From contig NC_019866.2 in assembly GCF_002234675.1 (NCBI RefSeq), positions 20,674,802 to 20,738,801 of the forward strand: a DNA stretch of 64,000 nucleotides, read 5' to 3'. This DNA comes from Oryzias latipes (lineage: Eukaryota; Chordata; Actinopteri; Beloniformes; Adrianichthyidae). The notes below the pieces were generated by a model. That model was given only the letters and a program-made list of their open reading frames with translations. It did not search any database and was not told the DNA's origin. A program made the position numbers and the translations under genes. This document shows, piece after piece, positions 1 to 49,398 of this stretch (position 1 is the stretch's first letter; each line of letters opens with the position of its first letter).

Positions 1-3000
1 TGTTGTGTGTAGACGAGAGGATTCCGACCTGCAATGAACGCAATATTCTTTTTTAAGCCCTCGTAGTCCTTGTCTGTGAGGGGCGATAAAACTGTCATGG
101 CGTCTTCTGTGGACTGACACTGTGGACAGACGTACAGGTCGATGTGATTGGCTTCGCTCTGCAGGATGCCCACACAGCGCCCGTTGGTACCAGTTCTGGC
201 AGCGGTCCACAGCCGATGTAAAACCTGCAGGAGAGCCATTGCTGTGCATCAGTACCGGCTTTGGAACAAGACGGCGAATTTTCAGTGGATCCCTTCGAGC
301 CTTACTGGATTCATCGTACGGCGTCCGGCAGATGCAGTACAGCTCCTCGCTGCAGCCTCCTTCCTGGCTGCGCTTGCAGTCGCTGCACACAAAGTCCTCC
401 AACTTCTTGGCTTCTTTCTCCGTGATGCCGACACATGCGCCATGGAACCAGTTGGAGCACAGGTCGCAACCGATGTAAAACCTGGGAGAAAAAGGCAACT
501 TTTACGACAACAACCGGCATCAGTGATGTCTGATGTGCAGGAGATGGTTGGTGCCGAGCGTACTTGGACTCGTCGTAGGGCGTTTTGCAGATACAGTACA
601 GTTTGGTGTCCTTCTTGTGATCTTTTGAGGTAGAAGACAGTTTCTTCTTCTTCTTTTTGTGTTTGGAGTCTCGGTCCTTGTCCTTGTCCCTGTCCTCGTC
701 TTTGTCTCTCTCCCGGTGTCTGTCGCGCTCCTGATCACGCTCCTTTTCTTGATCCCGGTCCCGTTCTCTGTCTTTGTCCCGTTTCTTGGTCTTCTCGTGG
801 TGTCTGTCTCGATCTCTGGCTTTTTTCTCTGTCTCTCTCGTCGTCTCTCTTGCGCTTGTGGGTGGAGGACGGAGGCGCCGTGGCGTGGGGGAGCTGTGGC
901 GGCTGAACGAGGTGGGAGGACTGGGCGGCGGCAGCCGCCTTCACCGTTGCTGCGGCGGCCTGGGTAATGGCAGCCCGGGCCTTCTCCTTTTCTCGCTGTA
1001 GCCTCGCCAAGTCCCTCCTCAGCTCCTCCTGACAGGAAAAGCATTCATGAATAATCTGTTTTGCTCATGTACTGCAGAAACTTTGCATCCCGTCTCACAG
1101 AGTTTACATCTCTGTGGTGGAATTTCTAAAGACCTGCACTTGAAGCTGCAGCTCCTTGTCCAGCAGCGCCCTCTTCTTCAGGATTTTCAGCCTTCAGCTG
1201 CTCTTTGTGTTTGTACAGCAGCGCGGTCAGCTTGGTGGCGTTCTGCTTGGAGCGTTTCTGCTCCACCACCTCTTCTTTTTTCCTTTTCTTAGCGGCCTGC
1301 TTCTCATCCTTTTCTATCTTGTCGAGGATGAACTTCATTACCTGGTTGCACACGATCATTCTGAGGGCAGAAAATTCTATGTGAGGCGAGGCGTTGTCTG
1401 GTTTAGAGAAAAGGAGTCTTCCAGAAAATGTAACATTCAGAAATGAAGTGAGATCAAACTCAGATTGGGTAAATGTGACATTAGGAGACCCAAACCTCTG
1501 GTTCTCCTCTCGTTCTGCAGCAGCCTGGGGTCTTCCTTTGCTTCAGCTGTTCTACTGCAGAATTTTGCTTCACTAACACCTAATATTCATTAGAAAAATG
1601 CAGTTAATAAGAATACAAATCACCTGCAAAGGAATCTTGTTTTCCTCAGGGCCTACCTGCTTCTGCGAGCCGTCTTTAGGACTTAACACCTGCGTGTTCT
1701 GCTCCTGTTCCCTTTTAGCCTCGTTGTGTTTCTTCTTCTTTGGCACATGCTGGACTTGCTGCTGTGGCTGAATCCTTGGAAGCTGCTCCTGAACTCCTGC
1801 TGACGCCTGAATGGTCACCATGTTCTGGAGTTGGTGGGCCTGAATTGGGCCGGTTTTCTGCTGGATCTGGATGGGGAGCTGCAGCTTGATTTGCTGGGGA
1901 ACAGCGCCTCCCTGCTGCTGGGCCTGCGCCTGGATCTGGGCCTGGATCTGAGCTGCAACATGCGGCGGTAGAGGCGGACAGCAGCTGGACTGGCTGTTGG
2001 AGACCTGGAACAGTGATGAGTTGATGCCTGATGGGGGACTGGACCTGGATCTGAGGCTGTGTTTGGACTTGAGACTGACTTTGAGGTTGGAACTGGACTT
2101 GGAGTTTCGCCTGGACTTGGGTTGGGGCTTGGACCTGAAGCTGTTGCGTGACCCGGCCGGTTGTGGGGCCTGCACTGTAAACTGGGGCTGCGTCTGGACG
2201 TGTGACTGAATGTGGAGCTGGGGCTGCAGGGACGAGTGAGTTTGAACTTGGTTTTGCTGCTGAAGCTGGACCTGGACCTGGGGAAGGAGGTGGGATTGGA
2301 TCTGGGGTTGAGGTTGAAGCTGAATTTGGGTCTGTGGCTGGGATAGAAGCTGCGGTTCAGTCTGTGGTTTAGTTTGAAATGATGCTTGTACCTGGTGGAA
2401 CTGGACCTGGGTCGGGGACTGCAGCTGGGCCTGGAATTGTGCTTGGGTTTGAGTCTGCAGCGGGGCCCACACTTTTTGTTGGGGACTGCAGCTGGATTTG
2501 GGTTTGCGGCTGAAGTTGTGCTCTGGGCTGGAACTGAACCTGGATCTGGGGGTGAATCTGAGCAGGAGTCTGGATGTGTGGCATCTGCTGAACCTGTGCG
2601 CACATTTGGGTCTGGAGCTGAAGAGGAGTATGGGCTTGGGGCTGTGGGGGTCTTGTGGGGGACACCACAGAGGAAACGGGTATCCCCTTCACATGAACCT
2701 GCACTGCTGAGATGGTCTGCGGCAGTTGCTGTGTGGATATCAAAGCAGTGGGCTGGACTTGTGCTCGAGTGGGCGGAGTCAGGGGTGGCTGAGGCGAAGG
2801 AGTAATGGGGGAGGCTGTGGGGACTGATACAGAGCCAGGTACAGACACCAGGGCAGGTGGTGTGACTGGAGCTGCAGCCTGCTGAGCCGTCTGAACTGCA
2901 GTCTGAGGTTCTGAGAAAGCTGGAGGCCACCTTGGGGCTGAGCTGCCCTCTGCTCTATCCGAGCTACAACAGGAAAGAAGTGAAGCTTTAAAGTTTGACC

Positions 3001-6000
3001 AGCTTAAAGAAACATCCTCAAAGGAAACACTCAGGGTGTGGAAATCGTCCTTACCTGGCACTGAAGGTGTGGTGGAGGTGGCTGTGACTGGTGTCACAAC
3101 AGCATTTGCTACAGCTGTAAGTGGAGGAACAGAAACTGCAGAGAGGATCTGGGTTGCTGGCTTGGCTGGTGATGGGACGGGACTTTGAGCAGACAGAGCA
3201 GTCATGACTGGGGCAGAAATAGGTGTAAGGGCAGACATTGGAGCCTGGACAGGGCAAGGTAGTGAGGGAGAAACTGGGATTTGGCTCAAGTTGGATGGAG
3301 CTGCTGCAGAAGCAACTTGTATTAGAGACCTGACGGTAACTGCAGATGAAGCAGCTGCAGGAGCAGACATCTGCACTGGAACAGATGTTGGAATTAAGCT
3401 TTGGGCAGGACTGAGGGGCTGTGGGTGGATTTGAGATCTCTGGACTGAAAGCAAACATGTACTCTTAACAGGGGTGGTGTTGGGCGTCAGGGTGGCGTTG
3501 GGTGTAAAAGTGGTGCTGGCCATCTGTGTGGAGTTAGGTATAAGGGCGGTGTTGGTGGTCAGAGTTGTGTTTGGTGTAAAGGTGGTGGTAGATGTCAGGG
3601 AAGCGTTGGGCATTAGGGTAGTGTTTGATGTAAAGATGGTGTTGTTGGGTGTCAGAGCGGTGTTAAGTGTAGAGGTGGTGCTGGGCATCAAGGTGGAGTT
3701 GGGAGTAAAGGTGGCAGTGGATGTCAAGGTGGTGTTAAGTGTAGAGGTGGTGTTGGGCGCCAGGGCGGTGTTTGATGTGAAGGTGGTGTTGGGCACCAGG
3801 GCGGTGTTGGGAACTAGAGTGGTGTTTGGCGTAGAGGTGGTGCTAGGTGTCAGGGCAAAGCTGGGAGTCAAGGTGGTGTTGGATATTGGGGTGGTATTAG
3901 GTGTTAGGGCGGTGTTGGGTATTAGGGCGGTGTTGTGTGCCAGAGAGGTGTTGGGTATCAGGGTGGTGTTGTGTGTTAGGGCGGTGTTGGGTATCAGGGT
4001 GGTGTTGTGTGTCAGGGCGGTGCTGGGTATCAGGGTGGTGTTGTGTGTCAGGGCGGTGCTGGGTATTAGGGTGGTGTTGTGTGTCAGGGGGGTGCTGGGT
4101 ATCAGGGTGGTGTTGTGTGTCAGGGCGGTGCTGGGTATCAGGGTGGTGTTGTGTGTCAGGGCGGTGCTGGGTATTAGGGTGGTGTTGTGTGTCAGGGCGG
4201 TGCTGGGTATTAGGGTGGTGTTGTGTGTCAGGGCGGTGCTGGGTATTAGGGTGGTGTTGTGTGTCAGGGCGGTGTTGGGTATTAGGGTGGTGTTGTGTGT
4301 CAGAGCAGGGATGTGGGTACTGGTTTGGTTCTGTGGGGCTGTGAGACCACGACTTGTCTAGGAGTCACACTCAGGCTTGAGGGAGGCTGGATTGAAACCG
4401 ATGGAGAGGGGGAGGTTAAATACTGCGCTCCAACCAAACCCAGTGACGGGTAGGGACAGGTGATGGTGCAGTGGCAGGGATCTGTGTTTGTAGGGCAGTT
4501 TGAGCCACAGCCTGGGGCAGAGCAGGTGAAGTAGCAACCACTGGGGTTTGAACAGAGGCAGAAACTGGGCTGTGGGCGGAGCTTAAAATTTGTGATGGGC
4601 TTGACATGTGTGTAGGAGCGGCAGTGGTGCCGTCATTTGTGTTTGGGCCATGGAGGATGGAGTTGTGTGGACCTGTGCTTGGACTTGGGTGGGTATCTGG
4701 GTCTGGGCGGGGACAGGTTTTGCAGGAGCAGCAGTTGGGGAAGGGGCAGCAGAGGAGGACGGGGGCATAGGCGTGAAGAGGAAGCGCTGCACCTGACCAT
4801 TGGGCATGGCGGCCTGCATTAACTGCTGACCAGGACCGGGGATGACAGTAACGCCCTGTGGGATGATTTGAAGCTGCCCCTGGGTTTGACCTTGACCTTG
4901 GATCACCACCGTTAGTCCTGGGTTTCCTCCCTGCATAGTTTTAGACAAAACCCATCTTCAGCCTCATAAACGACAACATTCAAGGTTAAATGAAAAAGGG
5001 GTTGTCCTTTACCTGTGCCCCCTGTGTCAGCTGCATAAGCTGAGCCATCGTCAGCTTGACTTGACCCTGCTGGGGTTTTTGGGCCGGAGCAGCAAAGTTC
5101 TGTCCTGCAGGGGCAGGAGATGCTGCTGCAGAACCTGTGACGGCTGGTTGATGATTACGTTTCATCTGGGTCAAAGCCTGCTGAGGTGAAGCTGCACCAA
5201 GAGTTTACATTTGATTAGTTCTTTTTTTTAACATACAACACAAACAACATTAGTTTGCAGAAGTTGAAACCTTGTTGAGCTGCAGCTGAATTTCTCATGG
5301 TGGAGGTAGATGGAGAAACGGGCGCCGCTGTGCTTGTGGTCGTCAGGCCTCCCGTGGTGACGGTCTAAAAACAAAAGTTCAAACATTAGTGAGCGTCCTT
5401 TGGAGCTGCGTTTCATTAAAAGCAAAGCTGGTGGGGTGAGCGTCACTGCACCTGCTGCTGAGCGTTTGAGGACGGGGGCGCAGATCTGAGGTTGATGTTG
5501 CCCGTTGTAGGGTGTAGTGCGCTGTAGGTCCTAAGGTTTGCTGGAGGCCCAGATGGGAAAATACTGACAACTTTCTGCTGACCTGCACCTGTTGATGAGA
5601 GGAGAAAGATGGATGATGAGGACAGAGCAGCACCCTTTTGAAGTAAATGCCCTCAAAAAACAGCAGTTTTATTTTAGACCAGAAGTAATTCAATGAAACG
5701 TGTATGTTTGATTTTCGACAAGAATTCAAAGAAATATGGCTTTTTACTGAAAAACAAAAAGAGAGAAAAATGGTGAGAAATCCTGAGGTATTTATTGAGC
5801 GGCGGGCGCAGTACGATTCTCTAGAGGCAGCGTGTTTTCTGCAACTTTTTTTTCCTGCTTGCCCTGTCCAGCAGCAAACAGATGAGAGCTGCAGGCCTCT
5901 GTTACAATAGTGGGTTCAATAGCGGGTTATGAATCTTCTGACAAACGAGGTGTATATTTGTATAAACCCCTTTTGGATTTAAGACTAAACTTAGTAATGA

Positions 6001-6367
6001 GTAATTTGCACTGATTTCTTGTTAACTGGACGGGAAGGCAAAGAGAAAGACAGTGGGATGTTAGAGATAGAGGATAAAGGAAGTAGAGGATGAAAAGAGG
6101 CAACAAGTAGCTGGAGGTTTCTCATAATTACGATCAAATGTAGATGACAGTCAAAAGTAGGGGTCGACCAATTACCAGTACTGATTTATTTGTTTTTTTA
6201 CTGACTTATTTATTTTTAAATGAACAAAGTTATTTGCTGGTGTTTGTTTTATTCTAAATTTTGATGCCAATATCAAAATTTGCACTTTCACTGCAAATGA
6301 ATATCAGCACCAAATATTGGTTACTGATAATAATAATTAACGACCCTGACATTTTTTTAAAAACAAC

Positions 6368-6619
6368 ACCTCGATCAATCTCCAGGGGAGCCAGTTTAGC
6401 TCGTGCTGGTTTGCGGCGCCTTCCGTCCGTGAAACCCGGGTTCGACTCCGGGCTGCTCCCTGTTCCCTTCTCTACCTCTGCCGGTTCCAAGCCCGGTTTG
6501 AGAAGGTTGTGTCAGGAAGGGCATCGGCGTAAAACATTGCCAAATTTACCATGCGACTCATTCGCTGTGGCGACCCCTGATGGGAGAAGCCGAAAGTGGA
6601 AGACCTCGATCAATCTCCA
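6368..6619 (+). mobile_element. tRNA-derived SINE with target-site duplication (duplicate block copy)
   Basis: Same element as at 31890-32108. The 17-base target-site duplications are at 6368-6384 and 6603-6619. A tRNA-like head with a B-box (GGTTCGACTCC) is followed by a body ending in GCGACCCCTGATGGGA and AAGCCGAAAG. One C is missing in the body relative to the other copy (GGCATCGGCG against GGCATCCGGCG). Confidence 0.8.
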
Positions 6620-7683
6620 CAGACACACTCAAATATTACAAACATACCTGTTGGCTCTAAAAAACCATCACACACATACATCAACATGTACACAATACAA
6701 ATACAGCTTTCAAGCTCATGCTTGTGCAAACAAACACACACAGGTCAAGCATGTTTCATTCATGCTCGCATAATATTTGCGAAAAGTGAGCGGGCAAAGA
6801 GGCGAAAAGTTCAAATATTGGAACTTGCATCCTGTCAACCAATCAGGGACTCAGCTTTGGTCCATGACACGTTGATGATCAGCAGCTAAAGTCCAAAACA
6901 ACATGGAGACTTGGAAGCTGATTGTTGCTTTTTGTTCCCCTCCTAAACTTTATGATATTTTCTTATTTGGATCGAGACAATAACAAAAAAAGGTCCTCTG
7001 AATTTATGTTAATTTTTTCTCCTTCCTGTGACAGAAAGTCATCAACCTGGGTCACAGAGACATGGAAGCACCACTGAAAGCGCCGTCATTCAGACGCAGC
7101 TGCTGCAGTAGATGGTGAAGCTCGCCGTACCGCGAGAGTCTCTGAATGATCTCATGAACCCAGACGTGAAGACGTGGTGACCGATGCTTTTGTAGAGCTC
7201 TTCTAAATAAATAATCCTGGTCTCTCAATGTCATCCGCGTCTTTCACGTGCCAGCAAAACTATTGATAGTAGCTCCTCCCACACGCGGCAGGACACACTT
7301 TTGGAGGAGCAGGGAATCTGACGTGCGTCAACAGCTGTGGCGGATGCAGATTTGCTGCGTGAACCGCGCTCGGTGTGAAAGCAGCATCAAAACATCTTCA
7401 TATCAGCAACATTTGGAAGGCATGAGCTCCAAGCACAACCGTTTCCTGCTCTCTGGAGTAGGAAACGGTCTTCCCAGCAGAGGGCAGCAGGAATGCCGGT
7501 CCGGAGCCGCTGCCAGCCGAAAGGAGCTGTGCCACGTACCATGAGGTCTGTGGTGTCCAATCCCAGGAGCTGGGATTTGGAAAATCTGATGGTTCACTGG
7601 AGTTCAGATGATTCCTCTCAGAGTGTTATTCAAAGAGGCTGTAAGCCCATTTGACCAACATTCTAATGTTAAAAAATGAAATG

Positions 7684-7910
7684 TAGTTTCCCTTTCGGCT
7701 TTTCCCATCAGGGGTCGCCACAGCGAACGAGTCGCATGGTAAACTTGGCAACGTTTTACGCCGGACGCCCTTCCTGACGCAACCTTCTCAAAGCAACTGG
7801 GCTTGGGACCGGCACAGAAGTAGAGAAGGGAACAGGGAGCAGCCCGGAGTCGAACCCTGGTTTCACGGACGGAAGGCGCCGCAAACCAGCACGAGCTAAA
7901 CCGGCTCCCT
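7684..7910 (-). mobile_element. tRNA-derived SINE, inverted (duplicate block copy)
   Basis: Same family as the element at 6385 but in the opposite orientation. It corresponds to 33190-33415 in the second copy and is flanked by the same 20-base direct repeat beginning CTAATGTTAAAAAATG. Confidence 0.8.
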
Positions 7911-8546
7911 AATGTTAAAAAATGAAATACTGGGGAAAAACTGAAAACTAAAATAAAACCGAGAAAGTAGTCAAAATAGACTTTAACTCCTGATAACCTC
8001 CTCCACCTCCTCCTCCTCCTCCTCCTTCTGCTGCTGCTGCTCACCAGAGCTGTTGGTGGTTTGACCCTGTTTAACCCAGGAAGCAAAGGACTGGTGGAAG
8101 TTCTTGTCCTGCTGGAAGGGAACTGTGGAGCCGAGCTTGGAGGCCAGCACCATTTTAGCTCCGGTGGGCGCCTGTCCTGCCCTCAGGGTCGTGGGGGTGC
8201 TGGCTGCAGTGGTGGTGATGGTGGTCGTGGTGGAAGTGGCAGCAGTCGTATTTAGTCTCTGCTGCTCGAGGCGTTTCTACAAACAGAAGACGTTGGTGCT
8301 GGTGGTCAGACGGGTGCGGATGTGGAAGCAGAGAAGGCAGGAGCCGCTCTGGCCGAACTCACCTGCTGAGCTGCCAGTCTGGCCTGCTTCAGCTGATGCT
8401 CCAAATGGGCCTTCACTTCATCTGCTGTCTTTAGAGTGCTGCTGCTTTTGGAGGAGTCTATTCCTTGGGACTTTTCCCTTTCCAGTCTGCAACAACAAAA
8501 AAAGGTGAAGGCTAGAAGGAGAAGGGAATTCCTGATAAAAAGGCAC

Positions 8547-9546
8547 NNNNNNNNNNNNNNNNNNNNNNNNNNNNNNNNNNNNNNNNNNNNNNNNNNNNNN
8601 NNNNNNNNNNNNNNNNNNNNNNNNNNNNNNNNNNNNNNNNNNNNNNNNNNNNNNNNNNNNNNNNNNNNNNNNNNNNNNNNNNNNNNNNNNNNNNNNNNNN
8701 NNNNNNNNNNNNNNNNNNNNNNNNNNNNNNNNNNNNNNNNNNNNNNNNNNNNNNNNNNNNNNNNNNNNNNNNNNNNNNNNNNNNNNNNNNNNNNNNNNNN
8801 NNNNNNNNNNNNNNNNNNNNNNNNNNNNNNNNNNNNNNNNNNNNNNNNNNNNNNNNNNNNNNNNNNNNNNNNNNNNNNNNNNNNNNNNNNNNNNNNNNNN
8901 NNNNNNNNNNNNNNNNNNNNNNNNNNNNNNNNNNNNNNNNNNNNNNNNNNNNNNNNNNNNNNNNNNNNNNNNNNNNNNNNNNNNNNNNNNNNNNNNNNNN
9001 NNNNNNNNNNNNNNNNNNNNNNNNNNNNNNNNNNNNNNNNNNNNNNNNNNNNNNNNNNNNNNNNNNNNNNNNNNNNNNNNNNNNNNNNNNNNNNNNNNNN
9101 NNNNNNNNNNNNNNNNNNNNNNNNNNNNNNNNNNNNNNNNNNNNNNNNNNNNNNNNNNNNNNNNNNNNNNNNNNNNNNNNNNNNNNNNNNNNNNNNNNNN
9201 NNNNNNNNNNNNNNNNNNNNNNNNNNNNNNNNNNNNNNNNNNNNNNNNNNNNNNNNNNNNNNNNNNNNNNNNNNNNNNNNNNNNNNNNNNNNNNNNNNNN
9301 NNNNNNNNNNNNNNNNNNNNNNNNNNNNNNNNNNNNNNNNNNNNNNNNNNNNNNNNNNNNNNNNNNNNNNNNNNNNNNNNNNNNNNNNNNNNNNNNNNNN
9401 NNNNNNNNNNNNNNNNNNNNNNNNNNNNNNNNNNNNNNNNNNNNNNNNNNNNNNNNNNNNNNNNNNNNNNNNNNNNNNNNNNNNNNNNNNNNNNNNNNNN
9501 NNNNNNNNNNNNNNNNNNNNNNNNNNNNNNNNNNNNNNNNNNNNNN
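8547..9546. other. Assembly gap of exactly 1000 N
   Basis: Unbroken run of N from 8547 to 9546. The round length indicates a scaffolding gap of arbitrary size. It separates the duplicated BPTF fragment on the left from the contig carrying SMURF2 exon 1, KPNA2 and BPTF on the right. Confidence 0.99.
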
Positions 9547-9944
9547 CAGTTTACTAGACAACAGCAATTCAATGCAGCTAAAAAAGAATTGCAGTACGTT
9601 CCCTTTATAGAGCACATTATAGGTCCTCAGACACTTGGTCTCTTCTTTCTTTCCATTGATCTAAAGAAAAACGTTTAGCAGATGCACATGCATTTTCCCT
9701 CATAAAATCTTCATTTTAAGTGCAACTTAAGATTTGAAAACCAATGAAAAGTACAGGTCAAACCTGGCTTTATGCATTTTACTTTTATTCATCATATGCT
9801 TTATTGAACAGAGATCTTGATAAAAATATGAAGCTACCTAACATTAAGATACATTTATTTTGTAATCCAAATATTCTACCCAACATGCCTGAACGGACTC
9901 CTAATTTAATGTGATTTCTTAGTAAAATCTCCAAATTGCAGTTA

Positions 9945-10175
9945 TAGTCTTTGAGATCTGACTAAACCGTCCTTGTGGTAAAGTGTCCGCCCTGAAAGTG
10001 GAAGGTCGTGAGTTCAAATCCCAGACAAGCCATACCTAAAGGCTCAAAGTGGGACCCAGTGCCTCCCTGCTTGAAAAATCAATAAAGGGGGATTAAACCA
10101 CCAAATAGTTCCCAAGCACAGCGGTGTCTGCACCTCAACACTGCCCCAGGGGATGGGTCAAATGTGGACTTTTAA
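9945..10175 (+). mobile_element. tRNA-derived SINE, second family
   Basis: The head has an A-box-like stretch (TGGTAAAGTGTCCGCC) and a B-box-like stretch (GAGTTCAAATCCC) spaced as in a tRNA promoter. The tail is the common fish motif GGGGATGGGTCAAATG. No intact tRNA fold is expected. A reverse-strand tail of the same type occurs at about 42560-42615. Confidence 0.7.
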
Positions 10176-11544
10176 CTTTTTGATGTTTCCTGTACCTTCT
10201 TCATCTTGCTGTCATCTTTGTTTTCTGACAAAAACACATCTAGTATGGACTAACCTGCTAAGTGGTTCCAACGCTCCATGTCTGATGTCATCACAAAAAT
10301 TTTAACAGCATTTTTTTGGAATTACATTTGACTGGACAACTTCTCAGAGCAGCACACGCCCTTCTACAGACTCCAGATGTGCAAATTGAAGTGACAGACA
10401 GATGAGCTGCTCACAATGTTTTTAAGTAAAAATGAGTGGACTTAATTATATTCGTGGCAATTTACAACTTAATAACCATCATCATTTAACTATGGCTTCA
10501 TGTGCAGACAGCTATATGGACTTGTGAGATGTTTGAATTCTGTTGTGGTTTCAATAACTCCACATGCAATGGGCAGAGGTTGTTGGGCTGGGTATAGAAT
10601 GAGGTATTTAAAAAAAAATAAAAAAATCAAATTGCCTCAAACTATTGAATATCTAAAAAATAATTATCATTCCAGATCAATTTTTGATGCTCAAGATGAA
10701 TTATTTTATAAAAGGCATCATGCTTGTTGATTCGGTTAATGCTCAGTAACAACAAGGAATTTGGTACTGCTTAAACTTTCTTAAAAATTATGTTGCGTAG
10801 AGAACTTTGTTTTTTTTTTTCTTGTTTGTTTCTTTGTCAGTTCGTTTGATTACGAAAAAAATGGACACATAAAAATGTTTTTGAGATGTATGAGAAAAAG
10901 CAAAAAACAAAACAAAAAAAAGGACAAAAGCGGTCAACACAAAATACGGCCCACAAACATGTGACCCACCAGGTGATTACTTACTCAATGACCGCCAATA
11001 ACACTATAATCAAAAACACACAAAAAAAACAATATTCAGTCCCCCTAATAAAAACCACAGTTAATTCATTCATTCACCTACACTTGTATCAAATTTGGGG
11101 CATTGGTATCAAAAAGTTTGGAATAGTACCCATCCTTAAAAATCACCTTTCAGTTTATATTTGGGTTGATTTAAATTGTCTGTCATTACATTATAATTAC
11201 AGCAGAATTGGAGAAATTTGAATAGTTTTTTAATAGTCCAATTTTGAACCTTGCTCAGTTTAAATGTTGAGTTATATGAAATCTTATTCATAAGAAAAGC
11301 TAGTTTCAGAACAGAAAAATTCAATCAAATCAGACTGAATTTGTAAATTAGAATCTTTTGAATTCTAAATCATACGGATTGTAGAATTTAACAGCGCCGT
11401 AAAAATTCAATTGAATTTAAAGTTTTAAATACAAATATATTTATTATATCTACAGAGGTAAAACAGTTTTTCAGACTGAACTGTAAGTGGTTTGGTTGAT
11501 GTTGTAAAGTTAGATCATAGGAGTTGACTGGTTTACATACCAAG

Positions 11545-12235
11545 CTACTAGAGCTGTGAAGGTGTGGGATTTCTGATTAACGCTGTGACGAACCAGCAGG
11601 GGGCGCGGTATCGCGGTTAACCGAAGCCACCCTCCCTGGCTTCACCTGTGCTCTCTGGCACAGACATCTTCTCAGAATATTATATATTGCCCAGTAATAA
11701 ACGACACTGCAGACACTTTGTCACGTTGCGCTGCCTAAAATAGTTCCCATACAAAACATGTAGTGATATTCATCGAAATCTAACAGTGAAGGAGAACAGT
11801 AATAAACTCCATGTCGCGCACTCAAGAACGCACGCAGCTTGTAATGGTAATGAATACAATGGAAATTAATAATTAGAACGCAGTAAATTTGTCGTATTTC
11901 CTCGCGAGACAGAAATTGATAGAATAGATTTTGTAGAATAAGAATGTGTATGTGCTTCTGAAACCACGTGCGTGCGTGCGTGTGTAAGTAGAGGGAGGGC
12001 ATGCAACGTAGAGGGAGTGAGAGGCACGGCGCAGGGAGTGAAGGAGAACAGTAATAAAAGGTTTCCCCCAGAAACCCTTGAAGTCTGAACACAGGACTAG
12101 CAGAAAAAGTAAATTATCAGCAATGATAAATGTGTTTAATGTGTTTATTATAGTTCCAATCACACACCATATGCAGAACTTTCAAAACAAACAAAAAAAA
12201 AAGTGCGGTGATGCGGTTATCGTCACACCCCTTGC
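11545..12235. mobile_element. hAT-like non-autonomous element with embedded repeats
   Basis: The left end reads GCTGTGAAGGTGTGGGATTT and the right end GATGCGGTTATCGTCACACC, resembling fish hAT MITE termini. The internal phrase AGTGAAGGAGAACAGTAATAAA occurs twice, at about 11787 and 12035. No transposase ORF is present. The assignment rests on the ends and is tentative. Confidence 0.45.
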
Positions 12236-12998
12236 TGGTTACCCAGTGAACTGACCCGGTCTCCTTTCCATTTGTTCTCAAGCTGGCTTTGAACAGAAAC
12301 CGTTGCCTCTTAGATATTCCTAGAACACTATTTAACTAATGTGCTCTATGGCAGGCTAGTGTACAATTCACAATAGCCTTTACTTGAGTCTCTTCTGACA
12401 GATTTTATGCTGCATTCCCGCCGGATGGGATTTGTGCATCAAATTCTCGTGTGCTGCCTCTCTTTGTTTGCACATCAAATTTACTGCTTGACGCCCCAGC
12501 TGCGGAGCTACCGCCAATGTTTTGACGGACTTCATTTGTTGCCACGTCATGGAAAAAATGGATAATGTTGAGCAAATTTTGGAGAGCTCCACAAAAGTGC
12601 CGGCAAGCCCGTCGTCGAGTCTGGGTTCACCAGATCCTTCAGAGTCTCTCCCGGTGCACTTCACTCCTGCTGAGAGAGCTGGGCCATGGGTACGGACGTT
12701 TTAAACGTTACTTCCATTTGACTGTGGCCCAGTTTGAGCAATAACCCACTGGGGGGAAAATTAAAAATAAAATTGGGGGGGGTCTTTTTATTATTGTCTT
12801 GATGAAAATAAAATAATCATAAGCGCACGGAGCTGAAGCGATCATCATGACGGCTCCCGCTCTCCATCTGCTAGCAGCCAACCGCCCGCGGGCTAGTATC
12901 GCGAGCGCCGCTGCCCAGTGTCACATTGCTGGACCCTAAGCGGTGGTGCTCACTCACTCAATCCTCCTTCTTTGCTCGCTATGCTGAATTGCCGGAGA

Positions 12999-13132
12999 CT
13001 GTCCTGGTCACAGTTGGGCGAAGGCAGGCGACGCCCTGGACAGGTCAGACCATGGATGTCGTCGTAGCGGGCTTCATGGATGGCGACCTGTCCAGGGTGT
13101 ATCCCGCCTTCGCCCAACAGTAACCGGGACAG
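12999..13132. repeat. Imperfect inverted repeat from a dispersed fish repeat
   Basis: Arms at about 12999-13046 and 13085-13132 carry the sentence GGGCGAAGGC..CCCTGGACAGGT in opposite orientations, so the stretch can fold into a hairpin. Related single copies lie at 48280-48370 and 57480-57590. Confidence 0.6.
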
Positions 13133-14231
13133 CCTCCAGCAACACCACGGCCCCATTGAAACTCGACGCCCCCCTGACGAACACATCACATCCGGTGTGA
13201 ATGCAGTATTACAGCCGTGACAGAATTGGTCTTCTAGCTGTTAGTTTGTGATGACAACCTGCCATCAATCTTCATGCAATGCCTATGAAAAATGCATAGG
13301 ACAAACTGAGTCAATAACAAATCCTAACAGGAATTACACCAAACTACAAAAGTAGCTCACAAATTATGGAAAACTTCTTCCAACCTTTTCTTTGATTGGC
13401 CTTTTCCAAAGATCCCTGTGTTGCTCCAAGCCTCTCTTCAAACTAAACTTTAACACATTATCTAAAAGCTGAACTAAAACAGCTCTGTTATTTTCCAACA
13501 AGCAAAGAATGAAGTTAGGAGCTAAATTCCTCATGCCTGCATATGTCCATTTTACCCCAACCTGACCCAGATGCCCTGTGCATGCCTCACAGTTCCAGCA
13601 CAGGACTCTGACCTGAATATACAAAGAAAAAAAATCATAAACAACAGACGACAACCTCAATTGTTGCTGGTTTGTCTGTGTGTGTGTGTCAACCACTTCC
13701 ATATGTGAAATACTAGGTCAGGCGGAAAAGGCTCAGCACTGACAGCCATGAAGTTTGTAGATTGGAACCTGCTGAAGTGGAGTCGGACGTACTTGAGTCA
13801 ATAACTTTATGCCCTGCTGTTGCTGTAAAAAAATGTAAATTAGGAGTTACAATCCAAGCCCAGAAATATGCTGTTTGAAACCAACAAACAGGAAAAGTTG
13901 ATCGGCTACTAAAAAAGAACTGAATACAAGATCAGAAAATGGACAAACCACTGTTGTGTAGGACAAAAAAACAAAATGAGGTTTGATTGGGAGTGCGGCG
14001 CCACTCAGTATCAAGAGGAGAGGTGGTCTGTGAGGTCTGCTCACGCCGTTTTTTCACAGCAGACACACATTCTTTACATTCCACTTAAAAACGACTGCGG
14101 TTCATCTCAAGTTGTAGTGACCAGTTCACAGCCACACTGCTTTCTGTAGAAAAGACAGAAAGTTCAGGCGATTTAATATGTCCTCTTGACTTGCATAAGG
14201 CTGTTCATTAAAAAACTCTTTTTAAAAAGGC

Positions 14232-14822
14232 TCTAAGCCCCACTCCAATCAGCTTTTGATCCATTTTCAAAGTGTTCCCATTGGTCTTCTAAATCTGATC
14301 GTGACATTTTTAAGCAAACTTTTAAAAAACAAAAACAAAAAAAAAACACTGTCTCATTTTATAGGACATAGCTTTTGCAGACCAGCAGGAGTTTATCAGA
14401 AATTTGCCTCTGAATTGTAGATGCGACTGTTGACACTGAGTATTTCCCATCATCGATTTGTTTCCACGCTCTCCTGCTAGCTTACAGCCTCACAACCCCA
14501 ACCTAACATTACAGGTGCAAACACCAATGGCGAGCAATATCCGAGCTATCCAGCCGTACAGCGTCGAGCCAGATTCCAGCTCAGACACGGAGAACAAAGA
14601 TGTGCATGTATCCATTCATCTGTAAGTGGATGCATCAGAATGGAGCAGAGCAGGAAGCCTGTTGTACCTACATCACAGCTACAAGCTTTTTCAAATGGCT
14701 TTTATTTAATACACTCCTGATTTACAACAATGTGAATAAAGAAATAGTCAAAAATGCAATTAAAAGCTTCATTTTCTTAAAATATGTTAAAAACACTATT
14801 TTCATCGGAGTGGGGCTTTTAA
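14232..14822 (+). mobile_element. Six-copy MITE-like family, copy a (best preserved)
   Basis: The ends are TAAGCCCCACTCCAATCA and TCATCGGAGTGGGGCTTTTA, an inverted pair around a body of about 590 bases. A small ORF begins at 14527 (MASNIRAIQPYS...) and stops after 32 codons. Related copies are at about 23180, 35130 (reverse), 38275, 45210 and 47398. The size and terminal repeats suggest a non-autonomous DNA transposon. Confidence 0.6.
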
Positions 14823-15944
14823 GTGAAGTGAAAGACTGCAGAGAGTCCAAAAACCCATCTTTGTTGAGTAATGAACTCTAATCTACCATGAATGTGGAAA
14901 AGCTTGCTGTCCTTGGCCAAACCTGCAACCTGTACATCAATACTCTATATCCCAAAATTCTGCTTGTTGACTGATCCTCTCGTTCCTTTCAGAAACAGCC
15001 CCAGCTTCAATATTTAACTGGATGCTTCCTCCTGGAACAAGTCAGACCTTGAACCAAATTCAGGTCAGGCTTTGGCCATACATCAACAAAAAGGCAGCTG
15101 TCTGACCCCTGCCTGTCTCAGTCAAAACAGCGCTGCCCTCACGTAAACCTGTTGAAAACAAGCCACCTAAACAGCTCCATAATGACCCACCTCCTCCGTA
15201 TATGACCTGCATTTTTAGGGGTTTTGGGGGGGGAAAACGTGGTTCCGTCTGCAGAAACTCAACACTGACCCGCTTTAGCAACAACAAAGGCGGCAGCTGT
15301 CTGCCAGTAAATATTATGGCACACTGCTCAATGGCAGTTGTAGACGCTGGTGACCTGTGGGGCTGCCTGTCAACTTTAGCCGGGGCTGGAGCGGTCAGCG
15401 GGCATAAAGGCTCGATTATTGTGGCCAACTGGCGGGGTGACTGGCTGGCTAAGCTAACGTCAGCTACTACAACCGTGAACCCGTCCGTCTGCCGGCGGAA
15501 CAGACTCCCAGGCGACTCTCGTTTCCTCTGAGCAATTTATGTTTATTTTAAATGCAAGAAAAACCACCTTTAATTTCTGTATCCTACAGAAATAAAACTA
15601 AACGAACACAGACAGACCTACGCTCTTTCTGTGTGGGATCCGTGTTATTTATGGTCATTTCAATCCCAAGGCTGAGACTATTTCCAAGAACAATATAATA
15701 CAATTTAGGGGTACATTTCGCGTCCACGAGAATATTTATTCATTTTGTGGAAACAGCATAGGAAAATATACACATTTTAAATAACATTTGGGCTACTGAA
15801 ATGAAATACGTAAATGACAGGAGGAAAAGGGTAGGCAGCGAGCCAACTCCGCGACCCATGGGAACGGTTCATCCAGCAAATACACCCAACCTTCCAAGCT
15901 AGTGTGTGGGAATAGAGTTGGAGATTTAAAGCGTCGCTCGGTAC

Positions 15945-15996
15945 CTGTTAGTCGCAGCTTCACGGGGCCATTCCGCCGAACTCCTTGGTTAGACAT
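15945..15996 (-). CDS. SMURF2: SMURF2 first coding exon (partial gene)
   Basis: The ATG at 15996 opens 17 codons, MSNQGVRRNGPVKLRLT, followed by a phase-1 donor (ACAG|GTACCG) at 15944. SMURF family proteins start MSNPG.RRNG.. and reach LRLTV at the start of the C2 domain. The VKLRLT form fits SMURF2 better than SMURF1, which has an extra SI residue pair. The split G begins the expected valine codon. SMURF2 is a HECT E3 ubiquitin ligase (C2, WW and HECT domains) that acts on SMAD and TGF-beta pathway proteins at membranes and in the nucleus. The remaining exons are not in the window; they should lie to the left, beyond the gap and the duplicated block. A short divergent 5' UTR precedes the ATG. 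Confidence 0.8.
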
Positions 15997-16079
15997 TTCC
16001 TCTTGGTTCCAACCTCTACTGCTGAAAATATATATTAAAGTAAAATATAAATAATATATATATTAAAAAAAAGGTCGCT

Positions 16080-16440
16080 GAACCTCTCCGCTAGTTTTAG
16101 ACTATAATAATGGAGCACTGTGGCCCGGATGTGGACCGAACTGCCATAGCGAAGCTAGTAAACGTGGAAAAATGGTCTTTTCACAACATGAAGAAAAAAT
16201 CGCGGCGCAGATGGCATTTCTACAAAGTGACGGTTCTTTCTCCTGTCAGGCCGCGTGGACGTGCTGGCGCCGTTGGGCTTCACATCTTCAGAGGGAGCCG
16301 CCGAGTCCTCCTCTCTGCTTGTCGAGAGTTGAACTGCTGAGCCTCTGGGGGTAGATCCCGCTTCAGGAGGCTGCGGCGGCGTGCGGGGAGCAGACGGATG
16401 ACGTCAGCACGCTCCGGGGGGTGGGGGCGAGGGGGACCCG
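16080..16440 (-). promoter_or_regulatory. SMURF2: CpG-rich region at the SMURF2 5' end
   Basis: GC and CpG content rise sharply here (for example GCGGCGGCGTGCGGGGAGCAG near 16370) against the AT-rich flanks, as at vertebrate CpG-island promoters. It sits just upstream of the SMURF2 start codon. No transcription start can be fixed from the sequence. An acceptor-like TATATATTTTCAG at about 16021-16035 allows an untranslated exon in this region. Confidence 0.5.
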
Positions 16441-18019
16441 CAGAGACGCTTGTGTCATGTGGTACAAAAGTCAGGGTTACACTCGGGGTTTGAATTTTAC
16501 AGGAGCAGGGAACATAAGCATAATTTTTACGATTTTTACAGGGGTGTTGCTGAATTTATTAAGGCCTAAGGGATCCTTTAACTTAAGCAATAAAATTATG
16601 AAAGCGAATAAACAATAACACAGATAAATATTGTTTAAATTGACATTTTGTGAAGTATATTAAATACTTCCTTTTTATCCTTGAAAAGGGTGATCATTAT
16701 TTAGTACTGGTTACTTTCACATTAAAACAGTCCTGTGGATTCAGTTAAAATGGGGAAAATGCTTAAAAAAGATCAAATATTGCTTTCACACATGCATTCT
16801 TTGTAGTGAAGTGGACTTTACCATCTGAATAAAATCTACAGTGAGACCTGTTTTCCTTGCTACTTATGGAGCACAGTCCCAAAGCCATTTGGTTCAACCC
16901 ATTCTTCGGTTTACAAGTGAACTGAGAATTCAGAAGCGGATCAGGGCACTTTTGTGTCAAACACACCAGAGTTCAGATAAACATTCACATCTAAAGGAAA
17001 TTAGACTGAGCATTCAAAGAAACACATTATGGCCAGTGTGTACGTGCTGGAAGGAATCTGCAGCATGCAAACGTCAGCCACAGCCAGCTGGTTTCATGAA
17101 ACACTAACAGTTGAAAAATTTGTCTGGCTGCAGTGTCTGATATTCCTCTCTAGTGACACCTAGTGGCCATCTGTAATAATCACCTGTAAATTTAGCATAT
17201 GCATTTTTCCAATTGATCAGATAGATGCCACTTTTTTCACTGCAAATGCATTTTAATTTGTGGCTTTTTAGTATGACAACTATATAATTATTGAACTTTC
17301 AAAAGAAGTTTAGAAAAGTGTAATCAATACAAATAAACAAAATCCCCTGTTACTGGAATACATGTCAAATGAATAAAACAATTTGGGTGAAATACCTTTC
17401 CTGAGAAGTATACACGTCTTTGTAAACCACTTTTTTTTAGAAAATAACTTAGCTTATTAGAATATTATTGTATTAGATTATGAAAATCCCCCTTTACAAA
17501 GCATGGTCTGATTTAGTTTGAGATTATTTATAAGATGGGGATTATGAAACCGGTATTAAAACTTTTTACCTAGGTCACTCAGGGAGCACAGAGCGTCAAC
17601 ACCCGCCTTTAGGGAACCACTCTGATGGCGACTTTAACATGTTTTGGTGGCATTTTTCTCACGTCAATCAGGAGCAGACAAAAGAACTGCCATTTGAAGA
17701 AACTTTCAGTGAAGGAAATACTACAGTTTTGCTATATGGTTCCATTCTGATGCATCCACTTAGTCAGATCCACATACCTTTGTTTTACTCATCTGGATAA
17801 GAACTCATTCACTGAGGAGCACAGTACAGCAACACAATCCTTTAAATAGGTAGAACTTACAAATCCAGATGGTCAAAAACTGACCCAAAAACTCATTTTT
17901 GGACCAACTCTTAGCCCTTTGAATTGTTGGATTAAAATTCTAACCGTCGCTTCGTAGATATGATCCACCAATGCACAAATCTGAATTTAAATATGAAAAA
18001 ATGCATTTTATGACAAACA
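16441..18019. other. Spacer between KPNA2 3' end and SMURF2 promoter
   Basis: AT-rich DNA without a recognisable exon, RNA gene or clear mobile element on either strand. Only short low-complexity tracts are visible. Confidence 0.6.
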
Positions 18020-18036
18020 TGGCAAGATTCAATAAC

Positions 18037-18042
18037 TTTATT
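18037..18042 (-). terminator. KPNA2: Candidate KPNA2 polyadenylation signal
   Basis: AATAAA on the minus strand about 95 bases after the stop codon. It implies a short 3' UTR ending near 18020. There is no transcript evidence. Confidence 0.5.
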
Positions 18043-18133
18043 TACAAACTTGTGTTAAAAGTTTTTGTACAAAACATAGAAAACCGACAAACAGTAGCAT
18101 AGAGGCGGCAGTGCAGACATCAGCAGAAGCCAT

Positions 18134-20541
18134 TTAGAAATTGAAAGTGCTCTGGTCATCGCTGATCTGGAAAGTGTACGAGTGATCCGTTGCTTGTGGA
18201 ACCACACACTGCACCACCTCCTCCTGTTGAAATGAGGACAAAACCCAGTCAGAGAGCTTCAGAGGGAGGACAGTCTCCGCGCTCCACAACACCACCAACC
18301 TCTTCAGAGAAGTACTTCTCAATCAGATTGAGAGCAGCTTTGTAGACCATCTCGTTCTCATGAGCCTGCAGCGCCTCGATCTTGTCCAGGCCGCCAAATT
18401 CTTCAATCATTAGGCTGAGTTTGTCGGACTCCCCGATCTTATCTCCAGCCTTTCAAAACAAAACGTTTGGGCGTAAAAATGACGCAAAGTCATAAACGTA
18501 ATCGACAAAAACGTCTACTCACCAAAAAGATGTTGGTTATTGCATCCAGGATGACGAGGACGGTTTTGCAGTCTTTGGAGGAGAGCAGATTCAGCAGGGG
18601 TTCCAGAACGTTTGCTTGGACCAAGTACACCACCTGCTGAACAGTGCCCCCGCTGGTGAAGTTTGTAACTGCCCACACAGCCTCCTTCTGGGTTTTGTAG
18701 TCAGCCTGCAGGGACAGAGGGTTTTGCAGGAATGTGACAAGGAGCTCTGACTGTTATGGATCGGACCGAACGCTCCTTCGTGACTTACCCGCACCAGCAG
18801 GTCCACCAGGTACGGCACCAGGCCGGCATCGATGACCTCCTGGATCTGAGAGTCCTTCCCGGCTGTGATGTTGGACAGAGTCCAGGCGGCTTCCTTCTGA
18901 ATGTTGGGCTTCTTGTGCCGCAGCAGTTTAGGGAACATGAACAAGGCCCCGGCATCCAGAACGGCCTGAGTCTGCTCGTCTGTACCCGTCACTATGTTGC
19001 CAATGGCACGCAGAGCTGGAGTCTGGAGGAAAGGTCAAAGGTGACTTTCGCAATCCTGCGAAACCTCACTAGAAGCAGAAGGAAGCGGATACCTACAATT
19101 ACGGGCAGCTCTTCAAAGCCGAGCAGCTTCACCAGGCGGGGAATCAAACCCGTCCCGGCCACGATCTCTATGCGGTCGTTTGAACCATCTGTCAGGTAGG
19201 AAACGGCCCAACAGGCGTCAGCCAGCACCTCCCGGTCATCATGGTGGAGAAGCCGGATGAGGGCGGGCATGACTTGCTGGACGGCGCTTATGGGTGGGGA
19301 TGGGTTCTTGTTGCGGCAAAGATTCGACAACGTCCACGTCACGTTTCTCAAAAAGCCAGGCTGTAAAGAATCCAGACAAAGAAAATGAACATATGTCTGT
19401 GAAACTGGAACGTCTCAACGTGCCGGGACGCCACCAGAGGTTAAAGAAACGAAACTTACAGTAAACACATTCAGGTCAGGGACGGCCAGCAGGCTCAGCA
19501 GAGGGGCCACAGCTCCATGCTTGATCACTCTGTCTCGGAGAGCTGATCCGTCACCTGAAGGAGGAAGAGACTTGTAGCCAAGAAAACATTTTCATGACAA
19601 TTTTCCCCAACAGTCGTTCCTTTACCAGCAATATTTCCAAGAGCCCAGACCGCCTGCTCGCTGATGTGCAGGTGGGGGGACGTGACCAAGTTTATGAAGG
19701 CGGGGATGGCCCCGCCCTCAACCACAGCGGCCGTCTGATCGGACGTTCCGGAGGCGATGTTTGTCAAAGCCCAGGAGGCCTCAAACTGGATGGGAGGAAA
19801 ATCCATCAATCCCAGGAAGGCCACAAACTTGGGGATGAGGCCGGCGCTGATCATCTGGTCAATGGGAGGATGTTTTTCGCGTGACAAAAGTTTCCTGGAT
19901 TAAAAAATAGAAAAGTTGGAGCTTATAACTTGGCTGTGGATCAGAACACTTAAATTTTTTTGGGTGGGGGCAGGTGTTACCGTGCGGCCTGGGTCGCCTG
20001 CAGCTGGGACTCACGGCTGCCACTGTTCAGCCCAGAGACGATCTCTTCAATCGTCCACTGCCTGGAGTTCTGCATGAAATCACATGTGGAGCAATTAGTG
20101 ACTATGAAGAAATCTAAGAAAATTAAACGAGACAATGTTTCACTACAGAGAAGAACTAGTTTTTTTGGTCAGTTGATAGTCACAACTGGCGCTTTTTAAC
20201 ATTTGCTTGCTCCTTGTTATTACTTAAAAGAATTGGAACAGAGCTTACTTGGCAGTTTTGAGTCCTTTCCTGAAGAGGAGAAGTGGCCTCCTCCGGAGCC
20301 GCCGCCACATTCCTCCTCTTGAACATCTGATCATCCTTCTTCGCCTTCCGGAGCTCGACGTTCACCTCCACCCTCCTGCGTCGCAGCTCCTGCAACAATC
20401 ACGTGAAAACGTCACACACCTGCACGGCTGCACTCAGCGACGACATGCCGTACTTTGAGATCATGAGGCCGGCCTGGGTCAACTCACGTTGGCATCCTTG
20501 CCTTTGTTCTTAAACTGAGTCAAGCGTGGAGTTTCAGACAT
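18134..20541 (-). CDS. KPNA2: Importin subunit alpha-1 (karyopherin alpha 2), 10 coding exons
   Basis: Importin-alpha is the adaptor that binds classical nuclear localisation signals and, through its N-terminal IBB domain, importin-beta. Coding exons: 20541-20488, 20389-20249, 20069-19981, 19894-19626, 19554-19460, 19360-19097, 19022-18789, 18705-18523, 18450-18300 and 18223-18134. Together they give 522 residues after allowing for one extra base (human 529). The IBB spans about residues 10-60, with the basic run [20 protein letters not shown]. Armadillo repeats follow, with the NLS-binding [29 protein letters not shown] and [10 protein letters not shown] turns. The C-terminus ends SDDQSTFNF. 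Exon 9 contains AAAA at 18421-18424 where AAA is needed, so the deposited frame breaks between GESDK and LSLMIEE. I take this as a sequencing error. The donor of exon 6 must be ATT|GTAGGT to keep ELPVI-TPALRA in frame. Confidence 0.95.
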
Positions 20542-20810
20542 TTTTGATTGGAAAAAAACGAGCCGAAAACGGCAAAGTTAAGTCCTGATCAAATGTAAAA
20601 CCTGCAAAACACAAGATTAACATATTAAGTACAAACTGTCCTAAAATAGATGTAAGCACGCATGCTGAGCTCATTATTCGACTTCCAAAAGTGACATGTG
20701 TTTGGGTGAAGCGACGTTTATCAAAGTAAAAGTTTGAAAGACATAACATTTGGGAGCAATTACATGAAATTCTTCGTAGGTTTGAGAAAGACAGCTTAAA
20801 ATTAACTCAC

Positions 20811-20875
20811 CTCTCCTCTGAAGAAAAGGAAATGTTCAGAAAATGCTGCGCTGACCTTTAAATTGTCGGTACAAT
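20811..20875 (-). other. KPNA2: KPNA2 untranslated first exon (approximate 5' end)
   Basis: A clear donor (GAGGAGAG|GTGAGT) ends at 20811, and the coding exon has an acceptor (TTTTGCAG|GTTTTAC) at 20601, so the 5' UTR is split by an intron of about 210 bases. The 5' boundary is a guess from the start of GC-richer sequence. Confidence 0.55.
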
Positions 20876-20883
20876 GGTTTCTG

Positions 20884-20938
20884 ATTGGGTTGTTCGAGCG
20901 AAAGCATCTGACCGCGGGCGCTGATTGGCTTCTTTGAA
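20884..20938 (-). promoter_or_regulatory. KPNA2: KPNA2 promoter: two CCAAT boxes and a CHR-like site
   Basis: ATTGG (CCAAT on the gene strand) occurs at 20884-20888 and 20924-20928, 40 bases apart. TTTGAA lies at 20933-20938 just beyond. Paired NF-Y sites with a TTTGAA (CHR) motif are typical of promoters active in G2/M, and KPNA2 is known as a proliferation-linked gene. The motifs are seen; their function is inferred. Confidence 0.45.
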
Positions 20939-20959
20939 AAAAAATCAAGGCTCTGACGG

Positions 20960-21599
20960 GAAGTGACGTCACGTTAGAAGTATCGCGATACTTGACTTTG
21001 TGACGATGTCTAAAGCGTCTGTCATCTTTTTAATCAAAAGATTTCAAATTAAAAGTTATTTCTGATACGTTTATTACTTGATGTGGCTAAATAAGTTCGG
21101 AATGATGGCAATGATTGTTGCTGATGATGATCGATGTGATTCCTTGATGTTGTGTTTTGTACTCTGTTATGTTCAATATAGCTGGAAAAAATAAACGTTA
21201 TTTTGGATTATTTGAAATTATGTGTTTAAACAACAGGTTTTGTTTTTAAAGCAAAAAAATGTTTTCTTTTGCTTATAATTTTATTTTTAATGCATTTTGG
21301 TAAAAAAAATTAATTCTGCGTGAAACTACTGTGGATATTAATATCTAAAATACACACATTTTACACAAAACAGGTAAAACAAAGATATTTAAAAGTATGT
21401 GTATTTTTTTAACAAACACCAACATTCACATTCATCTTAAAAAAATATTCTTTTTGATTTTCATGTTTTGTCCTTAATAGTTTTGCAATATACATAAGCA
21501 ACAAGGTACACTGATATTTATATTTAAATTCATTTTAAAAACTTGTTGCAATTTAAAGTTGATCATGACTGCTTTACATTACTAAAGATACACAAAGAC
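20960..21599. other. Intergenic AT-rich DNA between KPNA2 and BPTF
   Basis: About 640 bases of A/T-rich sequence with poly-A and poly-T tracts. I see no exon or recognisable repeat. Confidence 0.55.
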
Positions 21600-21615
21600 A
21601 AAATCAGTCTTCAGT

Positions 21616-21621
21616 TTTATT
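21616..21621 (-). terminator. BPTF: Candidate BPTF polyadenylation signal
   Basis: AATAAA on the minus strand (AACTTAATAAAACTGAAG). If used, the BPTF 3' UTR is about 3.1 kb. Several other AATAAA matches lie between here and 24680, so the choice is uncertain. Confidence 0.3.
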
Positions 21622-24600: not shown

Positions 24601-24683
24601 GTCAGAGCTCGCAGTGAGCCGAGAAGCGGAGGGCAGAGGAAAAAAGCCGAGCTTGAACCTTCCGTCAGAGCCGCTGCCTCGTC
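21622..24683 (-). other. BPTF: Probable BPTF 3' UTR
   Basis: No coding exon is visible on either strand from the BPTF stop to the candidate polyadenylation signal. A member of the six-copy repeat family lies inside at about 23180-23690. A short extra terminal exon, as in human BPTF (which ends SHNNKLQSTAS), was looked for here and not found. Confidence 0.4.
23180..23690 (+). mobile_element. Six-copy MITE-like family, copy b
   Basis: It starts near TCCTACTCTGATTATCTTTTG and carries the phrase CTCTCTCCTGCTAGC. The small ORF from 23423 (MASNIGAIRACG...) runs to GSLRPTRCIF and a stop. The right terminal repeat is degraded. Confidence 0.55.
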
Positions 24684-24874
24684 TTACCTGCTCGCCTTGA
24701 ACCCTTTCAGCTTCTGCACAAAGAAGGCCTCCAGCACCTCCGCACACTGAAAGAAGGGGGTGTCGTTGGGATTGTAGTAGCGACAGTTGTCAAAGATTTT
24801 GGTCACGTCTGCCACGAACTCCGTGAGCTTCTGGTAATGTCGCTTTTGCAGATGGGTTTCCATCGTGGAGAAAT
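24684..24874 (-). CDS. BPTF: BPTF exon 28: bromodomain, second half, and probable C-terminus
   Basis: It encodes [20 protein letters not shown] and [10 protein letters not shown], with the acetyl-lysine-binding Asn in YYN, then the final helix through [10 protein letters not shown]. Reading on gives AGG TAA. The same bases form a good donor (AG|GTAAGA), as in human where SHNNKLQSTAS follows. Either ending is possible; I found no downstream exon with that sequence. Confidence 0.85.
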
Positions 24875-48813: not shown

Positions 48814-49206
48814 CTACTCTAATGAAAAACATCTTAATAGGTCAAGTTCTTGCATCCATTGAACTTGTGAGCTTCTGGAGTTTCTGCTTGAATTTCTTTG
48901 CAGGATGTCAGAATAGCCTCCAGGAGCTGCCGTTTGGATGTTGGATTGCTTGAAGATGCTCCAAAGGTTCTCAGTAGGGTTGAGTTCAGGGGAGGATGGG
49001 GGCCACACCATCAGTTTATCTCCTTTTATATCCATAGCAGCCAATGATGCAGAGGTATTCCTTGCAGCATGAGATGGTTCATTATTATGCATGAAGATGA
49101 TTTTGTTACAGTTCCTTTTGTACCACTGAAGAACACGGTCAGTCAGAAACTCCACATACTTTTCAGGGGTTATTTTTTCTCTCCCCATGGTTCCAGCCCA
49201 AAACAT
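48814..49206 (-). pseudogene. Tc1-like transposase C-terminal fragment
   Basis: Open for 130 codons. It contains YVEFLTDRVLQWYKRNC, FMHNNEPSHAARNTS and MVWPPSSPELNPTENLW. This is the DDE core of Tc1-family transposases with one acidic residue apparently replaced by Asn. It lacks the N-terminal DNA-binding half and a complete first catalytic block. No function is expected. Confidence 0.75.
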
Positions 49207-49398
49207 GACTCTGCCTTATACCTTTGCCGTCGACGTTGCAGCCATGTTGGGACATGGTGGCCATCCACCAACCACCCATTACTCCGTCCATCTGGACTGT
49301 CTACGGTTGTATTCATCAGTGAAGAAGACTGTTTGAAAATAAGTCTTCATGTATGTCTGGGTCAGCTGCAGCCCTTTCTGCGTGCGAGTGTTGTCTAG

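Follow-up and report, generated by a model that had tools for sequence, protein, structure and literature searches.

The closest described systems are false duplications created by genome assembly. Those termed 'homotype', in the parts of a 2021 Nature article devoted to them (PMC8081667), lie near contig boundaries where two sequences dovetail, and after scaffolding they appear as tandem copies with a gap between them. In many cases the duplication is as long as a corrected read, and one example is attributed there to a bug in FALCON. Reduced read depth and an excess of k-mer copies in the assembly are further marks of this class. False gene gains resulting from duplication errors are treated in a second article (PMC9516828), the relevant sections of which give as the main source 'heterotype' duplication, that is, duplication of haplotypes.

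The assembly considered here fits that of the inbred medaka strain Hd-rR (Ichikawa et al. 2017), with about 734 Mb and 24 chromosomes (PMC5705604). According to the portions of this article dealing with sequencing and assembly, reads came from a PacBio RS II instrument with a 20-kb insert library, subreads averaged 6,519 bp, and FALCON, Quiver and Pilon were used to process them. Contigs subsumed by longer ones were removed, gaps of 1 kb were put between neighbouring contigs, and 491 gaps are counted, whose true size was inferred from clone ends to be probably above 37.5 kb. In these same portions we found no mention of the merging of overlapping contig ends. As a separate observation on this assembly, a 21-base end of Tol2 has 14 exact matches in it, versus 15 full copies reported in the article (PMC5705604).

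We analyzed a window of 64,000 nucleotides from Oryzias latipes (C8:20674802-20738801) that holds a 1,000-N gap and, on both sides of it, the same sequence. Comparison of the two sides leads us to conclude that this duplication is almost certainly an assembly artefact, namely an unmerged dovetail overlap of two neighbouring contigs, and not a second BPTF, KPNA2 or SMURF2. The artefact is an ordinary one, of a known kind that belongs to the published class of homotype false duplication at contig boundaries. Like the cases in the corresponding sections of PMC8081667, it consists of a dovetail of one locus, gapped tandem copies and unequal consensus quality in a long-read FALCON assembly. It differs from them in that its length of 24.5 kb exceeds the 6.5-kb mean subread of Hd-rR, although the lengths of corrected reads may differ from this mean. 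A limited literature search returned no published account of such a defect in medaka.

Results and Discussion

Two contig ends share 24.5 kb

The assembly that we searched comprises 734,051,031 bases in 25 contigs, presumably 24 chromosomes and the mitochondrion. For the comparison of the flanks, 50 kb on the left and 10 kb on the right were added to the window, 124 kb in total, and coordinates left of the window count a position 0. The 1,000-N gap at 8547-9546 is the sole run of N within these 124 kb. The features on which the argument rests are the following.

C8:20658860-20683347 (window -15941 to 8546): copy A entire, tail of the left contig, from contig comparison
1..8546, no strand: part of copy A inside the window, where the left contig ends; it carries BPTF 3' exons (minus-strand gene) with frameshifting one-base indels
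8547..9546, no strand: placeholder gap of 1,000 N between two contigs whose sequences overlap
9547..34053, no strand: copy B, with which the right contig begins (24,507 bp); coding frames open in the exon intervals examined
15946..15996, minus strand: SMURF2 exon 1, surplus second copy (MSNQGVRRNGPVKLRLT), by homology
18306..20526, minus strand: KPNA2 (importin alpha) coding exons, probe residues 13-497, in frame in copy B
24687..34053, minus strand: BPTF 3' exons (bromodomain, PHD fingers, Q-rich part) of copy B, with an intact frame in the intervals examined
34054..46696, minus strand: 5' part of BPTF with DDT domain, first PHD and N-terminal exon; present a single time in the window, on the right contig only

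Direct alignment of window 1-8546 with 25508-34053, on the same strand, gave 8,554 columns with no substitution and 16 one-base indels. Each copy has eight extra bases relative to the other and both are thus 8,546 bp long. A preliminary description of this DNA had noted the same length and content for these two intervals, and among the details that it named these can be found again: indels at about 306/25811 and 1184/26687, three positions within the large BPTF exon, at about 4334, 4447 and 4619, where the left copy lacks one base, and a copy that ends exactly at the gap. Its extent for the repeat was too small, however. A further match, of 100% identity, to the 1,001 bases that follow the gap (9547-10547) is present outside the window, some 25.5 kb upstream, at C8:20658860-20659860. 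Since the repeat reaches window -15941 (C8:20658860) and its partner starts at 9547, the interval 9547-25507 is duplicated too. With the chromosome flank included, the final 24,488 bp of the left contig correspond to the initial 24,507 bp of the right contig.

A comparison of contig against contig found this dovetail flush with both edges of the gap (-15941 to 8546 versus 9547 to 34053), so that two copies of one locus are split by an assembly gap; the two limits of the match are set by the end of the left contig and by the start of the right one. Over 24.5 kb the identity is 99.5%, and a chance match is therefore not at issue.

The sole serious rival to an artefact is a real and very recent tandem duplication of 24.5 kb in the Hd-rR strain, carrying SMURF2 exon 1, KPNA2 and the 3' part of BPTF. 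The assembler would then have broken at the junction, and reads that could not be mapped would have left one or both copies unpolished. A duplication broken in this way would give an identical contig layout, with SMURF2 and BPTF each intact, so that layout fits both readings. We nevertheless judge it very improbable, for several reasons that are given here and below. A search of the 124 kb found no repeat common to the two edges of the block, the most that they share being a 9-base inverted match; this opposes recombination between repeats but not end joining. In the same 124 kb, neither edge has any further copy except its own duplicate.

Gene content of the shared sequence

SMURF2, KPNA2 and BPTF were located by homology, all on the minus strand, with human protein sequences as probes; among PDB chains, the PHD and armadillo pieces also match those named BPTF and importin alpha. 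The duplicated block contains SMURF2 exon 1, KPNA2 exons and the 3' part of BPTF, and not BPTF alone as the preliminary description had it. In copy A the counterpart of KPNA2 (about window -7182 to -4968) has frameshifts. On the right contig, BPTF runs from the N-terminal exon to the bromodomain, from 46696 down to 24687. The open frame at 35911-37368 was assigned to BPTF through homology to the human probe; a search of solved structures with this frame gave no match.

SMURF2 exon 1 on the left contig lies at window -9489 to -9545. The possibility, already raised in the preliminary description, that other SMURF2 exons lie left of position 1 proved correct: coding exons were found next at about -40523, -41267 and -48778, with no gap in the 50 kb left of the window. 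Farther left, on the same strand, a HECT domain at C8:20604759-20608065 is taken as that of SMURF2 by its position, with 17 kb in between. To judge from this order of exons, SMURF2 is not split and nothing was inserted into it, the spare exon 1 being the one right of the gap. The earlier claim that exon 1 is cut off from the remaining exons thus holds for the surplus exon at 15946-15996 but not for the exon at -9489 to -9545.

On this basis, one can also consider the version first proposed, in which a BPTF fragment had been misplaced inside the SMURF2 locus. Within the window alone, one does meet BPTF sequence ahead of a SMURF2 exon 1. Leftward, though, the duplicate continues with KPNA2 and SMURF2 exon 1 in unchanged order and reaches further SMURF2 exons, and the flanking chromosome sequence refutes a misplacement. 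Both copies are where they belong, on contigs that overlap by 24.5 kb. The warning that a partial BPTF would inflate the gene count was justified, and the count would be raised further by an extra KPNA2 and by the superfluous SMURF2 exon 1.

Nature of the differences between the copies

Over the whole overlap, our event caller counted 105 indel events (99 of one base, five of two bases and one of four bases) against a single substitution. Counted by BLAST alignment, the same overlap has 3 mismatches and 103 gap openings. Runs of at least two identical bases, as judged on the longer copy, hold 92 of the 105 indels. The differences are unevenly distributed: the initial 4,663 bp of the overlap have none, and they peak near 21.5-23.5 kb of copy B.

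As a control, the same event caller was applied to tandem paralogous segments of 13.9 kb on C9, both on one contig, and it counted 79 substitutions and 22 indels (Fisher p ~2e-35 versus the C8 overlap). One of these segments lies in the tail of a left contig and some of its 22 indels may be errors, so that the contrast is conservative. The control therefore indicates that the differences at C8 are unlike biological divergence, whether allelic or paralogous. True tandem paralogues such as these HECT genes (C9:18.10-18.19 Mb) are likewise adjacent, near-identical copies on one chromosome, but unlike the C8 copies they differ mainly by substitutions and stand within one contig.

These counts bear on each of the readings. 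The paralogue-like substitution divergence by which a true tandem segmental duplication would be recognized is absent from the overlap; a young duplication free of substitutions would escape this yardstick, even if a duplication of any age is expected to show substitutions like the paralogues of this genome. Ambiguous mapping of reads, on the other hand, would leave errors under either reading, tandem duplication or artefact. A heterotype false duplication, in which the two copies would be the two parental haplotypes, seems to us to have hardly any chance of being correct. A gap between adjacent copies is also typical of haplotype duplication, as the pertinent part of PMC9516828 indicates, and the C8 locus resembles the cases treated there in having such a gap and in the false gain of exons and whole genes. 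Yet 105 indels with a single substitution across 24.5 kb are unlike allelic divergence, the strain is reported to be inbred (PMC5705604), and we observed neither haplotype-specific variants nor any other sign of the haplotype divergence on which most cases of PMC9516828 depend. What the comparison of the copies did reveal are differences of the sequencing-error type, as in homotype duplications. The earlier opinion that this is a false duplication, with indels only and hence uncorrected read error, is thus supported by the flush dovetail, by the ratio of 105 indels to one substitution and by the C9 control.

Which copy carries the errors

Twenty exon intervals of copy B contain 16 indels between the copies. 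For 15 of them the frame is open in copy B and shifted in copy A, and the reverse was never observed. Recognizable homology is present on both sides in copy B for 12 of these 15 decidable indels, while the other three, in the large low-complexity BPTF exon, were judged by its 863-codon open frame alone. The indel at 18543, in a KPNA2 interval with two open frames (18520-18700), was judged by tblastn. The sixteenth indel (24687) falls on an interval edge and is uninformative. Eight of the 16 indels of window 1-8546 are within the 20 intervals and the rest were counted for neither copy; those left out, in copy B coordinates, are 25811 (exon end), 32030 and 32405, as well as 27030, 27475, 27656, 27968 and 28430, in or beside Q-rich BPTF sequence.

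So far as coding sequence can tell, and most of the indels are non-coding, the faulty copy is the tail of the left contig. That the frame-breaking errors are all on one copy in the 15 decidable cases speaks against a real tandem duplication. Altogether, the flush ends, differences that are nearly all indels and the broken frames of the left copy favour the artefact.

We propose the following course of events for an unmerged overlap. The left contig ends 24.5 kb within a sequence with which the right contig also begins. Scaffolding would have ordered the two contigs by markers or clone ends, set a gap of fixed length (1 kb) between them and left their common sequence untrimmed. The tail of the left contig could be a poorly polished tail of corrected reads, and the reads of the one locus may have been divided between its two copies. 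One could also suppose that reads anchored in the unique flanking DNA have polished one edge of the C8 overlap. At a second gap, on C9 (see below), the first kilobase of the overlap already holds 7 difference events, and for this reason edge polishing stays a suggestion for C8.

Other gaps of the assembly

A second dovetail was found at the 1,000-N gap C9:18131972-18132971. It pairs 29,377 bp with 29,380 bp, with one substitution and 64 indels, and is flush with both edges of the gap. It spans C9:18102595-18162351, inside a tandem array of HECT-domain genes, and was reached via near-identical neighbours among the HECT-domain matches listed genome-wide. The recurrence of a flush dovetail at a gap on another chromosome is a further argument against a real duplication at C8; so is the fit of the published class and of the assembler used with an artefact, as far as the sections on these points in the two descriptions go (PMC8081667, PMC5705604).

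Additional candidates were picked by eye among the HECT, kinase and ion-channel matches listed. Two pairs on C22 turned out to be ordinary paralogues and were rejected as dovetails: C22:24715879/24739482, with 22 substitutions and one gap opening, and C22:23718565/23734843, with 87 substitutions, one gap opening and no gap in the 20 kb examined. The former pair adjoins a third gap, C22:24734540-24735539, at which no dovetail was found within 22.5 kb on the left and 6.5 kb on the right. Dovetails are thus present at two of the three gaps examined (C8 and C9, but not C22), a proportion that is biased and gives no estimate of frequency, as the C8 gap was the given finding and the C9 gap was found through duplicated matches.

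The inference from clone ends that gaps probably exceed 37.5 kb, as worded in the gap section of PMC5705604, is contradicted by the C8 gap. We give about even chances to the hypothesis that unmerged dovetails are systematic in this assembly, and that a considerable fraction of its one-kilobase gaps, roughly 491 in all, are negative and stand for overlaps of 20-30 kb instead of absent sequence of more than 37.5 kb. If this were true, falsely doubled or frame-broken genes would recur beside gaps.

Consequences for use of the reference

The biological significance of the C8 duplication is ordinary. On the other hand, analyses of copy number, paralogues or synteny that rely on this reference could count KPNA2 twice and gain a broken partial BPTF together with a spare first exon of SMURF2. 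Uniquely mapping reads, whether for expression, methylation or variants, could be lost over up to 49 kb. The combination used here, a dovetail flush with a gap of fixed length and an excess of indels over substitutions, provides a test that needs no reads and could be applied at every gap of a long-read assembly.

Repeats and other elements in the window

A scan of the window against Rfam gave no match at gathering thresholds. At 9970-10170 lies a dispersed repeat that looks like a SINE and whose start, by eye, resembles a tRNA; with its two full-length matches excluded, it has about 75-82% identity to copies at no fewer than 39 further places in the genome. A fragment of a DDE_3 transposase domain is found at 48817-49215 on the minus strand, and in a fish genome it is probably Tc1/mariner-like. 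Finally, the large BPTF exon holds, in its 863-codon open frame on the minus strand, a minisatellite of 36 bp with 15.5 copies (window 29248-29805, duplicate at 3746-4303). It encodes a 12-residue repeat in frame and has the same length in copy A and copy B.
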